Below are positions 3,735-40,309 of a stretch of DNA of 64,000 nt, in pieces. Below the pieces are notes generated by a model. That model was given only the letters and a program-made list of their open reading frames with translations. It had not been told where the DNA came from and ran no database searches. Source of the DNA: Pseudomonadota bacterium (GTDB taxonomy: Bacteria; Pseudomonadota; Gammaproteobacteria; Pseudomonadales; Pseudohongiellaceae); NCBI GenBank assembly GCA_027621405.1, contig JAQCBT010000019.1, forward strand, positions 1 through 64,000. The letters are read 5' to 3'. The number at the start of each line of letters is the position of its first letter. Within the stretch, counting starts at the first letter, position 1. The translations under genes and the position numbers were made by a program.

Positions 3735-4685
3735 TCACTTGGTACTGAACTCTTGTTCGTCCTTGATGACATATTCAAGCGAATCCCTCTTGCGACCCCA
3801 AGCCGATGCCAGCAATGAACCGCTGATGTTATGCCAGACGCTGAAGATGGCTCCTGGAAGGGCAGCGGTGGCGGAAAAAAATTCCAGCGCCAGCGCGACG
3901 CCCAGGCCAGAATTCTGCATGCCCACTTCGATGGCGATTGTATGGCTTTGACGAATATCAAATCCCATCAACCGTGACAGATAGAACCCACCGGCCAGTC
4001 CACCCAGGTTGTGCAGTGCTACCGCGATTATAGTGATGCCTCCCACGGCCAACAGGCTGTCGCTATTGAGGGCCACCACGATGGCGATGATGAGCAGGAT
4101 AATCACAATGGACAGGCTTGGCAGATAGCGCTGTGATCGTTCAACGATAGTCGGCATAAAGTGGTTGCATAATGTACCTATTGTCACCGGCAGCAGCACC
4201 ATCTGGACGATACTCATGAGCATACCCAGCCTGTCGACAGAGATCGTCTCTGAAAGATAGAACGCGCAGAGCAGAGGGGTGGCGATTACCCCTACCAGTG
4301 TCGAAGTAATCGTCATGCTGATAGAAAGAGCCAAGTCACCTTTAGCCAGGTAGCTGATTACGTTCGATGCCGTACCTCCAGCACAACTGCCCACCAGTAC
4401 CATACCCGCAGTCAATTGGGAGGAGAGCTGCAGCATGGTTGCCAGGGTCAGGGCGAGTATTGGCATTAACAGGAACTGTAGTACGACACCGACGAGAACA
4501 GGCTTGGGGCTCTTCAGGATTCGCTGGAAGTCTTCCTTACCGAGGGTGAGCCCCATGCAGAACATCACCAAGGCGAGCAGCGGCACGATAAGATCACTCA
4601 AACGGGAGAAGGCATCACTGAAGAAGAAGGCAGTGATCGCCAGCAGGAAAGCCCACAGAGGAAACAGGGCGTTGAATCTGGTCAT
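3735..4685 (-). CDS. Bile acid:sodium symporter family (BASS/SBF) transporter
   Basis: Inner-membrane transporter of about 316 residues with nine to ten hydrophobic segments. Typical SBF-family motifs are present: GSCAGGTASNVISYLAKGD in the first half and EVGMQNSGLGVALA in the second, the two crossover regions that bind sodium and substrate. Family members move bile acids, pantothenate, pyruvate or other organic anions; the substrate here cannot be read from sequence. The frame extends 17 codons upstream, but the ATG at 4685 gives the normal N-terminus (MTRFNALFPLWAF). It is transcribed away from the lipoprotein gene at 4926. Confidence 0.88.
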   Translation of the reverse strand: MTRFNALFPLWAFLLAITAFFFSDAFSRLSDLIVPLLALVMFCMGLTLGKEDFQRILKSPKPVLVGVVLQFLLMPILALTLATMLQLSSQLTAGMVLVGSCAGGTASNVISYLAKGDLALSISMTITSTLVGVIATPLLCAFYLSETISVDRLGMLMSIVQMVLLPVTIGTLCNHFMPTIVERSQRYLPSLSIVIILLIIAIVVALNSDSLLAVGGITIIAVALHNLGGLAGGFYLSRLMGFDIRQSHTIAIEVGMQNSGLGVALALEFFSATAALPGAIFSVWHNISGSLLASAWGRKRDSLEYVIKDEQEFSTK

Positions 4686-4797
4686 TGTTCGGGCGGCTGG
4701 TTGGTTGAGAGCGCCAGCATACTGCAAATACACCACTCAATTAAGCGCTATTAAGCTTTGATTCAGGCTGGGTCGCTAAGCTGGCAGGACCATCTGC

Positions 4798-4823
4798 TGT
4801 AACCTTTTTTGCGCCTTTGCGTC
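4798..4823 (+). promoter_or_regulatory. ECF-type promoter upstream of the lipoprotein gene
   Basis: TGTAAC (4798-4803), 16 bases, CGTC (4820-4823). The first 12 bases, CTGTAACCTTTT, are identical to those of the element directly before the ECF sigma gene (6154-6165), with the same spacing to CGTC. The pattern matches the general ECF consensus (AAC-type -35 with CGTC-type -10). The predicted start near 4830 leaves a leader of about 95 bases before the lipoprotein gene. Confidence 0.65.
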
Positions 4824-4925
4824 AAAACAGTGGATGGGAGGCTACCGATTCTTGATTCCTGATGTGAATGGTGCCGCCATAAATCTCTCAACAAGTAAAA
4901 AGTGAACCATAACGGGGTACGAGAA

Positions 4926-5285
4926 ATGATAAGAAAGGCACTATTACTGGCAATGGCCATAGCCCTTACCGGCTGCCTTGTCACCGTGGATTCCGATTCG
5001 CGCCCACTGCAGACTTCCTGGGACGAAGGTGATGTGCATCGAATGCAGGTGGGCCAGAGTGACCAGGAATACGTTCGCAATTCCTTTGGTGATCCCGGCA
5101 CCAAGCTGAGCTATGCCGATGGCACGGAGATCTGGAAGTACCGTAACCGTTCCGAGAAAGACACAGAGGTCGGTGTGTTCCTGGTATTTTCAGTCGATGT
5201 AGAGGAAGAGCGTGTTGAGACACTGTCTATAGAATTCGTGGATGGCATCGTCAGCAACTACTGGATCGAAGAAGACCGCTTCTAG
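4926..5285 (+). CDS. Small lipoprotein with BamE/SmpA-like domain
   Basis: A 119-residue lipoprotein. The signal peptide ends in the lipobox LTGC, with Cys17 as the acylated residue. The body resembles the SmpA/OmlA (BamE-like) fold: a 'VGQSDQEYVRNSFGDPG' segment similar to the conserved 'GMTKEQV..LLGTP' of that family, followed by a WKYRNR strand and a C-terminal strand. Such proteins act at the outer membrane in assembly or stress responses. The start at 4926 is chosen over an in-frame ATG eight codons upstream because it gives a proper signal peptide. An ECF-type promoter matching that of the neighbouring sigma gene lies 103 bases before it, so I infer it belongs to that regulon. Confidence 0.8.
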   Translation: MIRKALLLAMAIALTGCLVTVDSDSRPLQTSWDEGDVHRMQVGQSDQEYVRNSFGDPGTKLSYADGTEIWKYRNRSEKDTEVGVFLVFSVDVEEERVETLSIEFVDGIVSNYWIEEDRF

Positions 5286-5329
5286 TTTCTGGGGTCCACT
5301 CAAGGTTCGGAAGCAACCGAGCGCTGTGG

Positions 5330-6022
5330 TCAGGGTCCGCGCGACTCTGACTGCAGGACGGTCGCCAGCCAGGATTCAATCTCATCCCAGTTCAGTGTGA
5401 ATATGTGGTGGGCGCCCGGCACCAGTGCCGCGTCGACCCTGGCCCCCCTGACTGCCAACAACTCCCTGCTTTCCAGCAGCTTTCGATTCCAGCGGAAGTC
5501 GTCTTTCTCTCCCACGCGCAGGAAAATCGGTAAGCCCTCCAGTTCCCCAAGCGGATATTCCTCGAGAATTCGCCCGGGGGTAGCTATTACACCCAGGTAA
5601 TCCTGAGGATTCTGGGTGGCAATAGTCAGGGCAGCGCTGCCACCCGAAGATATCCCCAGTATCAGGGGTTTTTGCTCCTTTATTGTGTGCAGCTCGTGCA
5701 ATTGGGCCACGATGCCACTCATGAGGCTGCTGTGCTCGATGAAGAAGTTGCGTCCCTGGTCGGTCATCGGGACTACTATGGCCCAGCCCCGGTTAACCAT
5801 TTCCTTGCCCAGCCAGAATTGGGCGCGGGCCATGAATTCGTTGTTCAGGCCTCCAGAAAGCAGGATGGCGAGGGGAGGCGGGGCTGTGGCATTCTCTGGC
5901 TCGAAATAGAGCACCCGCACGCTAAGTCCGTCCCCCAGATCGAGGGTATTCTCGGCGGCTGACGTCGCCATGCTGTACAGTAACAGACAGGCTGATAGCA
6001 GCAATTGGAGGAGCTTGGGCAT
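5330..6022 (-). CDS. Exported alpha/beta hydrolase
   Basis: A 230-residue protein with a cleavable signal peptide (residues 1-23) and an alpha/beta hydrolase body. The nucleophile elbow is GISSG with Ser125; the likely acid is in GEKDD (Asp174/175) and the base in PGAHH (His205/206). The oxyanion region is LLSGGLN. Enzymes of this kind are esterases or lipases, and the substrate is not predictable. It is divergent from the ECF sigma gene with 169 bases between, and the ECF promoter reads away from it. I see no operon partner. Confidence 0.8.
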   Translation of the reverse strand: MPKLLQLLLSACLLLYSMATSAAENTLDLGDGLSVRVLYFEPENATAPPPLAILLSGGLNNEFMARAQFWLGKEMVNRGWAIVVPMTDQGRNFFIEHSSLMSGIVAQLHELHTIKEQKPLILGISSGGSAALTIATQNPQDYLGVIATPGRILEEYPLGELEGLPIFLRVGEKDDFRWNRKLLESRELLAVRGARVDAALVPGAHHIFTLNWDEIESWLATVLQSESRGP

Positions 6023-6154
6023 GGCAATCCGGGCCTTTCAACAGACTAAATTATATCAGCAGGCCCATCGAAACCGATGAGCTATGAGATGAAATACCCC
6101 GGAATCCGGCTGTTCTACGGATGTTGGGCCCGAATCGACTCCTGACCTCGCTCC

Positions 6155-6180
6155 TGTAACCTTTTATTTGGTACCTCGTC
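6155..6180 (+). promoter_or_regulatory. ECF-type promoter of the first sigma operon
   Basis: TGTAAC (6155-6160), 16 bases, CGTC (6177-6180). It shares CTGTAACCTTTT and the spacing with the element at 4798-4823. Its position directly upstream of the sigma gene suggests autoregulation, as is common for ECF sigma factors. The predicted start (about 6187) is only some five bases before the ATG at 6192, and no ribosome site precedes that ATG, so the message may be leaderless. Confidence 0.7.
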
Positions 6181-6191
6181 TTTATTATCAA

Positions 6192-6779
6192 ATGCTAGCG
6201 CAATACCAACAGGCAATAACCCAGCACCGGCAGAGAGTGTTCTCTTTTGCCCACTATAGCCTGCGCGCGAAGGAAGATGCCGAGGACATCACCCAGGAAG
6301 TGTTCATCAAGCTCTGGCAGCACTGGCAGAAGATTGATCACAGCAAGCTTGGGGCCTGGCTGATGCGGGTGGCACACAATGCAGTGATAGACCATGTGCG
6401 GAAGCAAAAGAATGTGGCCAGCCAGACAGATGACTACGCGGAGCCGGAGGAGCAGGCTGCTGAGGCCCTGACTGAACAGCAGGTGGATGACGGAAAATTT
6501 AAAGAGGTGCTTATGGCCAGTATTAAGCTACTGGACGATCCCTTCCGCAGCATCATCATCATGCGGGACATTCAGGGAATGAGCTACGGCGATATCCAGC
6601 ACACGCTTGATATGAGCGAGAGCCAGGTGAAGGTTTACCTGCATCGCGGTCGGCGCAAATTGAGAGAGAACCCGGTATTGAGGAAATTATTCGACACCAT
6701 GACGGGTAGGGATGCGGGCCAGAAGAAATCATCGGCGCAAGTCAAGGCGGACGTGGTGGAACTGGGTAAACGGAAATAA
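6192..6779 (+). CDS. ECF RNA polymerase sigma factor
   Basis: A 195-residue sigma-70 family factor with only regions 2 and 4, typical of group 4 (ECF). Region 2 spans about residues 10-75 with the core-binding helix EDITQEVFIKLW. Region 4 spans about 105-158 with the helix-turn-helix MSYGDIQHTLDMSESQVKVYLHRGR. The longest frame starts with TTG at 6168, but ATG at 6192 is preferred. The gene leads an operon with a zinc-type anti-sigma factor and two DUF4252-like exported proteins. An ECF promoter lies immediately upstream, pointing to self-activation. The basic tail after residue 160 is longer than usual. Confidence 0.93.
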   Translation: MLAQYQQAITQHRQRVFSFAHYSLRAKEDAEDITQEVFIKLWQHWQKIDHSKLGAWLMRVAHNAVIDHVRKQKNVASQTDDYAEPEEQAAEALTEQQVDDGKFKEVLMASIKLLDDPFRSIIIMRDIQGMSYGDIQHTLDMSESQVKVYLHRGRRKLRENPVLRKLFDTMTGRDAGQKKSSAQVKADVVELGKRK

Positions 6780-6891: not shown

Positions 6892-7545
6892 ATGAACAGC
6901 AACAATGAAACCCAATGCTATTTTGTGCAGTTGCAGATAGATAACTATCTCGATGGGGATCTGACTGCAACTCAGCAGGAGTCATTCATCAGCCACGTGC
7001 AACAATGCAGTGAGTGCGCCAGTGAATTCCGTTACGCGAAGACTATTCAGGATGGGCTGGTAGATATGCCCCTGATCGACTGTGCAGACAGCGTCGTGGA
7101 GTCGCTTCTGACAACGGTGCAGTCTCAACCACAGGAGCAGCCCGACAGGCAGAAGGCTGGCAGCTCGGGTCTGGCAGATTTCTGGCAATGGCTTCTCAAT
7201 GCCCCCCTGCTGGTGCGTTACGGAGTGCCTGCCATGGCAGTAGCCGCGCTGGCGATCGGCCTGTTGCCTTCGAGCCCAGTGGCCCCTGAGCAGGCTCAAC
7301 CGCCCCTGCTGGCCAATTCGCCAGCAATATTAAATGCGACCCCGGTGGAATATAGCCCGGAGGAGGTTGTCCAGGCATTGCAGGACCTCAACCTCGCGAT
7401 CCAGTATCTGAACCAGGTGAGCGAGCGCACAGAGAACATGATCGGTGGACGCTTCCTCATGGCGCCGCTGCAGGAAAACCTGAACGCATCTTTCGAGCGC
7501 ATCAGGGAGAGGGATGCAAACCCTCTGAACAATGACCCGATTTAG
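6892..7545 (+). CDS. Membrane anti-sigma factor with zinc-binding motif
   Basis: A 217-residue single-pass protein. The cytoplasmic N-terminus holds the H-x3-C-x2-C zinc anti-sigma motif (His35, Cys39, Cys42, in SHVQQCSEC). A transmembrane helix follows at about 106-126, and then a periplasmic tail of about 90 residues that may sense or bind a partner. Family knowledge: such proteins hold the ECF factor inactive until a signal releases it. It lies 112 bases after the sigma gene. The frame is open further upstream, but ATG at 6892 (with an in-frame GTG one codon before) gives the normal N-terminus. Confidence 0.88.
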   Translation: MNSNNETQCYFVQLQIDNYLDGDLTATQQESFISHVQQCSECASEFRYAKTIQDGLVDMPLIDCADSVVESLLTTVQSQPQEQPDRQKAGSSGLADFWQWLLNAPLLVRYGVPAMAVAALAIGLLPSSPVAPEQAQPPLLANSPAILNATPVEYSPEEVVQALQDLNLAIQYLNQVSERTENMIGGRFLMAPLQENLNASFERIRERDANPLNNDPI

Positions 7546-7615: not shown

Positions 7616-8185
7616 ATGAAGACAATCAAGACACTGTTTGTGAGTACCGCAAGCGCAATTCTGCTCAGCCTGATGCCACTGGCTATGGCGGCAGACGACA
7701 ACATCGAAGACCATCCCGGTTATGTCGATTTCTCCGGCCTGACGACTATCGCCAATACGGAGCCAACGGTAGAGATCAGCCTGAAGGCGCCGCTGCTGAA
7801 TATGATCACCAATCTAATTCGGGCGGAAGATGACCTGGCGGCAGATTTTATCTCCAAGCTGCTGAGGGTTACGGTCAATGTCTTCGAGAGTGAAGACATC
7901 GACGTCGACCAGATTGCAGACAGGATGACGGAAATAGCTTCTAACCTGGATGCCCAGGGGTGGGAGCGAGTGGTGCGGGTGCGCGAGGACAGCGAACACG
8001 TGGATATCTACATGCGCATGTCGGATGACGCCGAGTTTATTCATGGTGTGGCCATCATGGTGGCCGAGCCGGGCGATACGGTCATGGTTAACATCGTTGG
8101 CGAGATCAGCGGTGATGATATCGCCGCCCTGGGACGCCGCTTTGAAATCGACGAACTGGTCGATCTGGATGTGGATCACCAGTAG
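7616..8185 (+). CDS. DUF4252-like exported protein
   Basis: A 189-residue protein with a signal peptide cleaved after about residue 25 (AMA). The rest resembles the DUF4252 family: an amphipathic first half rich in acidic residues, then strands around 'GWERVVRVREDSEHVDIYM' and 'VMVNIVGEISGDDIAALG'. The family's function is not known. As I recall it, it is best represented in Bacteroidetes, often beside ECF sigma genes. The start at 7616 has a GGCGAGGATAG stretch upstream. A second, related gene follows after 39 bases, suggesting a tandem duplication with one soluble and one lipid-anchored copy. Confidence 0.8.
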   Translation: MKTIKTLFVSTASAILLSLMPLAMAADDNIEDHPGYVDFSGLTTIANTEPTVEISLKAPLLNMITNLIRAEDDLAADFISKLLRVTVNVFESEDIDVDQIADRMTEIASNLDAQGWERVVRVREDSEHVDIYMRMSDDAEFIHGVAIMVAEPGDTVMVNIVGEISGDDIAALGRRFEIDELVDLDVDHQ

Positions 8186-8224: not shown

Positions 8225-8785
8225 ATGACAGTAAATCCGACTCGATATCGAACCCTGCTAATGCTGTCTCTTGCTTCGCTATTGTTAACATCCTGTATGT
8301 CCTTCTCTGATCGCTCGTTGCGCCCCGTACGCAACTCCATACAGGAGCAGATGCCTGAAATACGCCTGGAAAAGGAGATGGCTATCGCCCTGCGCAGTGG
8401 GATGTTTGATTTTCTGGATTTGATAAGCCTGGAAGAGGCCGACCTGTCCGAGGTGGAGCACTTGCAGGTAGCGGTCTATGAGGTCATTCCCCGGGGAGGG
8501 GAGCGCAGCTTCAGTGACGCAATTTTCCAGCGTTCCCTGCAGGAGAAAGACGCTTCACTGCATTGGGAGCGTATCGTAAAGGTGCGTGAAGAAGGGGAGC
8601 AGGTCTGGGTGTTTGTTGGCATGAACCTCGATGCAGAAACCCTGGAAGCAGTTTCCGTATTTGTCGTTGAACAGGATGAGTTGGTGCTGATCAATGTCGA
8701 TGGTGACATGCACGAGTTGCTGCGCTATGCCTTCGAGCCCGCCAAAGGCCGCAGGGGAGCCTATAAATCCTCTCACTCAGGTTGA
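8225..8785 (+). CDS. DUF4252-like lipoprotein
   Basis: A 186-residue lipoprotein with lipobox LTSC (Cys24). The body follows the same pattern as the preceding DUF4252-like protein, including 'WERIVKVREEGEQVWVFV' matching 'WERVVRVREDSEHVDIYM', and an ending 'LVLINVDGDMHELLRYAF' matching 'VMVNIVGEISGDDIAALG'. It is the last gene of the ECF operon. Its 3' end overlaps the convergent molybdoenzyme gene by 13 bases, so no terminator separates them. Function unknown; I infer a role in the envelope stress output of the ECF system. Confidence 0.78.
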   Translation: MTVNPTRYRTLLMLSLASLLLTSCMSFSDRSLRPVRNSIQEQMPEIRLEKEMAIALRSGMFDFLDLISLEEADLSEVEHLQVAVYEVIPRGGERSFSDAIFQRSLQEKDASLHWERIVKVREEGEQVWVFVGMNLDAETLEAVSVFVVEQDELVLINVDGDMHELLRYAFEPAKGRRGAYKSSHSG

Positions 8786-40114: not shown

Positions 40115-40309
40115 TCAGGTGGTCTGCTCGCTGATAACTGCTGCAGATTCATTCGAAATCAGATATTTTTTGTCGAAATTTCCAACTTTCCAGCGCAGGT
40201 CATCGCGCCATCCAACGTTAGTGTGTGGAATGGTTACACCCCGAAATTCGGGCTTGGTCTCGGCCGCGAATATCTTATAGAATGCCTGCGTTATCGGGCA
40301 TCCAGCCAT
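40115..40309 (-). CDS. Possible small protein, 64 codons
   Basis: An ATG at 40309 is preceded by a strong ribosome-site-like GAGGGGGGCAGA. The 64-residue product is mostly polar and charged, with a plausible composition, but resembles nothing I know. Its stop abuts the stop of the plus-strand gene ending at 40114. No promoter is clear. It may be chance. Confidence 0.3.
   Translation of the reverse strand: MAGCPITQAFYKIFAAETKPEFRGVTIPHTNVGWRDDLRWKVGNFDKKYLISNESAAVISEQTT

Follow-up and report, generated by a model that had tools for sequence, protein, structure and literature searches.

A probably autoregulated ECF sigma factor and its predicted envelope and export regulon in a genus of Pseudohongiellaceae

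A stretch of 64,000 nt (hereafter the window) from a marine bacterium of the Pseudohongiellaceae (GCA_027621405.1, contig JAQCBT010000019.1) carries two copies of an ECF-type promoter, one ahead of a lipoprotein gene and the other ahead of an operon for an ECF sigma factor and its anti-sigma factor. The motif recurs before the same envelope and export genes in related genomes, so that the two copies are apparently components of a larger response that has been conserved. Gene content, promoter conservation, gene co-occurrence and a motif enrichment found only where the sigma gene is found make it very likely that the sigma factor regulates itself and directs a conserved envelope and export regulon. 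The wider regulon, a predicted near-leaderless sigma gene and a second cis-element at the lipoprotein gene are new, the original prediction having contained none of them.

Results

Two ECF-type promoters in the window

Both promoters have the layout TGTAAC-N16-CGTC and lie on the forward strand, at 4798-4823 for the lipoprotein gene (TGTAACCTTTTTTGCGCCTTTGCGTC) and at 6155-6180 for the sigma operon (TGTAACCTTTTATTTGGTACCTCGTC); a hydrolase-like gene on the minus strand (5330-6022) separates the two units. The cores have CTGTAACCTTTT and CGTC in common. The two claimed copies are thus present, with 11 bases following TGTAACCTTTT instead of the claimed 12. No third copy had been noticed by eye and there is none: even with one mismatch, TGTAAC-N16-CGTC matches these two sites only. 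A relaxed N15 match at 40214-40238 (minus strand) was not counted, the gene behind it being on the opposite strand.

In the window the bare pattern is no better than chance, since 1.95 matches with one mismatch are expected against the 2 found and 57 of 100 shuffled sequences reach two or more. The organism's own genome (3.71 Mb) has 6 exact matches, versus 16 for the reversed control, and 19 matches to TGTAACN15-17CGTY versus 66. Judged by random occurrence in this genome, the test that the original prediction had set for itself, the bare motif alone fails. As the bare motif is not enriched genome-wide, the case rests on conservation across the genus.

Genes behind the two promoters

The sigma gene (6192-6779, forward strand) encodes 195 residues matching Pfam Sigma70_r2 (PF04542) and r4_2 (PF08281) above cut-off with no match to region 3, as in an ECF sigma factor; TIGR02937 is matched at 97.4 bits (cut-off 42.9). 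The nearest NCBIfam model is NF058625, the GFO_1088/PG0214 family (E 5.3e-36), whose curated cut-off of 130 bits places the protein, at 123.9 bits, outside the family. The second gene (6892-7545, forward) specifies an anti-sigma factor with a zf-HC2 domain (PF13490, 25.4 bits; cut-off 22.2). Zinc-finger (ZAS-type) anti-sigma factors are marked by H-x3-C-x2-C with an upstream Cys or His, and C9, H35, C39 and C42 are present in 16 of 16 aligned sequences together with an equally invariant C64, a layout that we take to be that of a zinc-binding anti-sigma factor. By its sequence the protein has one likely transmembrane helix, and its C-terminal part is conserved. Two DUF4252 genes follow on the same strand. 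The first product (7616-8185; PF14060, 57.4 bits, E 2.1e-15) is exported by the look of its N-terminus and the second (8225-8785; 26.5 bits) is a lipoprotein by its lipobox LTSC; both exceed the gathering cut-off of 23.9. A PDB search with the first as query gave no match. Pfam thereby confirms all four of the gene assignments proposed for the operon.

The lipoprotein gene (4926-5285, forward; 119 residues, lipobox LTGC read from the sequence) starts with the ATG at 4926, preceded by a Shine-Dalgarno-like ACGGGG, and its product is 64-82% identical to 16 relatives (alignment A1). The BamE-like label given to it finds no Pfam support in the window protein alone, which has no match and falls short of the gathering score of BamE (PF04355); 13 of the 17 members of the alignment match this family weakly (best E 0.0031), and a PDB search with the profile produced only two unconvincing matches (E 0.28). 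The resemblance to BamE is thus weak.

Conservation of both promoters

Fifty-eight genomes were searched, with thresholds of E ≤1e-20 for the sigma protein and E ≤1e-5 for the lipoprotein. Each gene was found in 21 of them, all within the genus. Among 37 genus genomes, 19 have both, two the sigma gene only and two the lipoprotein gene only (Fisher 3.6e-6), absences carrying little weight because many of the genomes are drafts. In 19 of 21 genomes the sigma ATG follows the promoter at a distance of 10-13 nt, 14 of these promoters being exact and 5 having one mismatch. G021 and G036 have a one-mismatch site farther upstream, at 67 and 61 nt from the ATG. In G017, G029 and G032 a distant site tied in scoring and the GGTAAC site 11 nt before the ATG was used. 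All 21 lipoprotein genes have the promoter 61-165 nt before their start, with a motif score of at least 9. Scores are to be read against the background: none of 1234 window segments of 245 bp outside 4500-6400 scores 10 or more and 20 reach 9; in loci L078-L097, 14 of 3088 segments reach 10, several of these being sigma or lipoprotein promoters, as do 4% of 3000 segments drawn at random from the collected loci with their promoters.

The core bases and their spacing are conserved; the remainder of the spacer varies between the two copies and between species. The sigma and lipoprotein genes are unlinked in G017, G021 and G032, and each still has the motif, with one mismatch. G012 was not counted as unlinked, since its two genes stand at the ends of two contigs and may be neighbours. 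Two drafts in which no sigma gene was detected (G008, G020) keep the lipoprotein promoter. Conservation of both sites across the genus bears out their reading as ECF-type promoters, and the promoter conserved before the sigma gene supports the proposed autoregulation. That the lipoprotein gene belongs to the regulon, also proposed at the outset, draws support from conservation, co-occurrence and the motif enrichment limited to sigma-bearing genomes (see below).

Two further features of the sigma locus were seen. In two loci from metagenome-assembled genomes (L096, 320-730, from G012; L097, 24-338) the sigma gene has lost an internal part and is fused to the end of the second DUF4252 gene, possibly through assembly error; in G012 the -10 element of the sigma promoter is altered to CCTC and the lipoprotein promoter is intact. 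One genome has two sigma-gene matches (G076:C150 and G076:C222), each preceded by an exact motif.

A predicted near-leaderless sigma mRNA

Transcription from ECF promoters starts 6-9 nt after CGTC. With the ATG 10-13 nt after CGTC, the sigma leader would therefore be a few bases long. In the window the ATG at 6192, 11 nt after CGTC, lacks a Shine-Dalgarno sequence, and an alternative TTG at 6168 falls within the promoter itself. Shine-Dalgarno-like tetramers are present in none of 20 sigma leaders versus 18 of 19 lipoprotein leaders, counts that set aside G019 (sigma) and G003 and G012 (lipoprotein), where the projected start is not a start codon; the 13-nt distance in G019 is likewise a projection from the alignment, the nearest ATG by eye being at 11 nt. 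G021 and G036, whose leaders are long, are exceptions: GCGGGAA adjoins their sigma ATG, partly outside the scored interval. Together, the 10-13 nt spacing and the missing Shine-Dalgarno sequence predict that the sigma mRNA is near-leaderless and would be translated as such. Leaderless transcripts in Sinorhizobium are the subject of PMC3616915.

A second element at the lipoprotein gene

Upstream from the lipoprotein promoter lies a direct repeat with an 11-bp period, TTAAGC-N4-ATTCAG (4751-4766, forward strand), 31 bp before the ECF -35 sequence. It is followed after 10 bp by a degenerate -10-like TAAGCT, the whole element spanning 4751-4782. In the relatives the consensus is TTMAGC-N4-RTTMAG with the same period, often with a TATNAT-like element 10 bp downstream. 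A repeat score of at least 10 out of 12 is attained by 17 of 21 lipoprotein upstream regions, from which the consensus was itself derived, versus none of 21 sigma upstream regions; in 15 of the 17 the repeat lies 30-31 bp from TGTAAC. The window copy scores 11; six other places in the window score 10 and none 11. In 1.06 Mb of collected loci, a set that over-represents the lipoprotein gene, 29 of 36 distinct matches scoring at least 11 are followed by an ECF motif within 120 bp, and a further two belong to lipoprotein genes with one mismatch in that motif; the repeat was not found before other regulon genes in this set.

Repeat and -10-like element resemble PmrA/QseB-type boxes at sigma-70 promoters, making the repeat a candidate box for an OmpR-family response regulator. 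Given this likeness, the lipoprotein gene is probably under tandem control, by the ECF sigma factor and by a putative response regulator that would bind the repeat. A literature search for a TTCAG box found no paper with that term among the matches listed.

Further genes with the motif

A pattern search covered 61 genomes sampled from the genus, which is larger, and yielded 103 matches versus 55 for the control. Fifty-four matches (52 of the 103 and two from the own genome), judged by eye to lie outside known sites, were examined further; of the 52, no fewer than six turned out to be sites of the sigma or lipoprotein genes (L108, L123, L127, L132, L141, L146). Of 46 downstream reading frames picked automatically, 25 fall into six recurring families, one being the lipoprotein, and 21 do not; some picks are wrong, as in L133, where the LiaG-like protein is in another frame. 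Orthologs were then searched by protein and their upstream regions scored for the motif, an N17 spacer being penalized for the LiaG-like and QGVW families and not for the MacB/FtsX, adaptor and small membrane protein families or the background segments. The regulon thereby outgrows the two sites originally proposed: the motif stands before orthologs of four further genes and, in part, before those of a small membrane protein.

An exported protein, named LiaG-like from a weak match (22.3 bits vs 285), has an exact TGTAAC...CGTC in all 18 cases with upstream sequence, among 19 orthologs found (N16 in 13, N17 in 5); two drafts without a detected sigma gene (G061, G079) retain it. For a MacB/FtsX permease the motif is present at 12 of 12 loci of at least about 54% identity (10 exact, 2 with two mismatches) and absent from a 40% paralog. 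MacB-type permeases behind the motif in L115, L122 and L147 were not among the loci of this ortholog search. A HlyD-family adaptor has the motif in all 15 cases with upstream sequence, 16 orthologs having been found (11 exact, 3 with one mismatch, 1 with two). Its operon continues with an ABC ATPase, for which DarD is the best NCBIfam model (277.8 bits; cut-off 375), and two MacB/FtsX permeases that fit the halves of the ADOP model better than the Dar models; the adaptor matches DarC weakly (42.8 bits, fourth best; cut-off 450). In the own genome the adaptor stops after residue 330 (L282, 609-1601, G000:C48), against an open frame of 338-453 codons in the 15 other genomes, perhaps through mutation or assembly error.

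Thirty loci of the large family of exported QGVW proteins were covered. The six best orthologs have the motif (3 exact, 3 with one mismatch) and none of the other 24 scores 9 or more; L199, counted as negative, is a partial match of 57% identity and differs from the motif at one position (TGTAAC-N17-AGTC). Among 24 cases of the small membrane protein in sigma-bearing genomes, 17 have the motif (score at least 9.5; 14 exact). None of the four cases with enough upstream sequence in sigma-less genomes has it, two others (L247, L271) being left out as too short upstream. Motif sites of further targets in the own genome are at C40:109751-, C19:15642-, C48:62041+, C56:3545+ and C32:209225-.

Between tolC and thiC (L287, G000:C12), a TGTAAC-N17-CGTC lies 191 nt upstream of a gene for a TolC-like outer membrane efflux protein, possibly a further member of the regulon. 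In L128 and L129 (G021, G032) the identical motif TGTAACTTTTTTACCCGTGGCTCGTT stands 57 nt before a gene for an exported protein that looks TonB-plug-like by eye, Pfam giving no match.

Motif occurrence with and without the sigma gene

In the 37 sigma-bearing genomes the motif occurs 98 times versus 35 for the reversed control, and in the 24 without the sigma gene 5 times versus 20. The figure of 98 is inflated, because the pattern was drawn from sigma and lipoprotein promoters that are included in it, and the Fisher value of 6e-7 for the difference is not a true probability, as related genomes are not independent. Of the genomes with the LiaG-like protein, 17 have the sigma gene and 2 lack it; for the MacB match (E ≤1e-100) the numbers are 11 and 0, and for the adaptor (E ≤1e-50) 16 and 0.

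Discussion

Interpretation and alternatives

Read as a whole, the data fit the following model. A signal from the envelope, for which the DUF4252 partners may act as sensors, would free the sigma factor from its membrane-bound zinc-finger anti-sigma factor. The sigma factor would then transcribe the four genes of its own operon, the short distance from the promoter leaving the sigma mRNA almost without a leader, and act in trans on the genes for the BamE-like lipoprotein, the weakly LiaG-like exported protein, the MacB/FtsX permease, the HlyD-family adaptor with its ABC ATPase and two permeases, the exported QGVW protein and often also the small membrane protein. The anti-sigma and DUF4252 proteins would be induced along with the sigma factor and so complete the loop, and the lipoprotein would answer in addition to the second conserved element, which is like a two-component response-regulator box. 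A more specific version, which we offer tentatively and think rather unlikely to hold in full, makes this an envelope-defence regulon not defined before in Gammaproteobacteria. In it an ECF sigma factor that amplifies itself from a near-leaderless mRNA would converge with a two-component regulator on the BamE-like lipoprotein, which is strongly conserved. Export functions of LiaG-like and MacAB/Dar-like type would be co-effectors, and the whole would respond to outer-membrane assembly damage or envelope-active peptides.

The signal might instead be oxidative or disulfide stress, the zinc site of the anti-sigma factor being a redox sensor as in RsrA. We regard this as a possibility of some substance, if an improbable one. 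The invariant zinc-site residues and fifth cysteine would suit it, as would the match to the RsrA model, itself weak (23.7 bits vs 62.5). So would the behaviour of two Porphyromonas gingivalis operons, PG_0214 and PG_0985, which in the accessible part of PMC10101095 are among the genes with raised expression in strain FLL361 (apparently the PG_0686 mutant): about 2- to 3-fold when hydrogen peroxide is absent and 6- to 11-fold when it is present. Against it, the named targets are exported proteins and exporters, with no clear redox enzyme in the scans made, and the anti-sigma factor of a like operon in another family (see below) has no NCBIfam match and, by eye, no H-x3-C-x2-C. Many zinc-site anti-sigma factors, moreover, are not redox sensors.

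Less probable still is that the motif is a generic promoter serving several ECF sigma factors, so that the genes do not form one regulon of this one. Elements of the TGTAAC/CGTC type are common among ECF groups and the sigma query found 17 candidates in a first look at the organism's own genome; enrichment confined to genomes with this sigma gene speaks against that reading, as do the MacB (11/11) and adaptor (16/16) matches found only in such genomes and the small membrane protein motif, present in 17 of 24 sigma-bearing and none of the four informative sigma-less cases. That the two copies reflect mere chance or local duplication, as the chance-level count in the window and the below-control count in the genome might suggest, is scarcely credible and already contradicted by the comparative data, namely the kept core and spacing amid differing spacers, the motif before orthologs of several other genes, and the 0 of 1234 background segments reaching 10. 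We thus retain the autoregulated envelope and export regulon as the preferred reading.

Relation to known systems

The original prediction knew of no earlier description of such a system. The cassette itself is known, as it resembles the NCBIfam families GFO_1088 (sigma), GFO_1090 and GFO_1091 (lipoprotein), whose neighbourhood is inferred from their locus numbers; for the regulon, no paper describing it was found in the literature searched, nor one on DUF4252 with DUF4097 or on an ECF/MacB/TolC combination. The gene PGN_0319 is presumably the same as PG0214. The sigma factor SigCH (PGN_0319) is said, in the part of PMC5607195 available, to act on cdhR and hmuYR. In Bacteroidota, PG_0214-0218 have the gene order of the window cassette (sigma, anti-sigma, DUF4252, further small gene): the accessible text of PMC10101095 gives PG_0214 as sigma factor, PG_0215 as putative anti-sigma factor, PG_0216 as DUF4252 protein and PG_0217-0218 as hypothetical, with PG_0985-0987 likewise arranged. 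The window genes differ from this type in scoring under the NCBIfam cut-offs and in coming from another phylum, and no regulon with these target genes is described for it in those parts of the sources. For a cassette that is functionally blank in Bacteroidota and a few Gammaproteobacteria, the present data provide a concrete, testable target set, a link to envelope and export genes, and two regulatory details, the near-leaderless sigma mRNA and the tandem control of the lipoprotein, both as predicted.

Some of the targets recall other systems. The LiaFSR- and SigW/SigM-type envelope stress regulons of Bacillus share a LiaG-like protein, ABC permeases under stress control and a similar promoter core, and differ in their Gram-positive hosts and their regulators; the LiaG match of the exported protein is, as noted, weak. 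The DarBCD darobactin exporter is approached by the ATPase (nearest DarD) and faintly by the adaptor (DarC), with both scores below the cut-offs and the permeases better fitted by ADOP.

DUF4252 exceeds its cut-off in 3 of 370 Gammaproteobacteria genomes, the own one included, and because of this rarity in the class the genus is a natural place to study the domain. The other two genomes (G207, G306) belong to another gammaproteobacterial family and have the same order, sigma/anti-sigma/DUF4252/DUF4252, with TGTAAC-N16-CGTA upstream of the sigma gene. The G207 sigma factor scores 113.4 bits against NF058625 (cut-off 130), and its anti-sigma factor has no NCBIfam match. The distance from TGTAAC-N16-CGTA to the sigma ATG is 7 nt in L280; in L281 it is 46 nt, measured to the ATG listed there. 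The two loci (L280, 4402-4437; L281, 5219-5293) have TGTAACCTTT(T/C) and CGTA, and L281 has CTG where L280 has its near-leaderless ATG.
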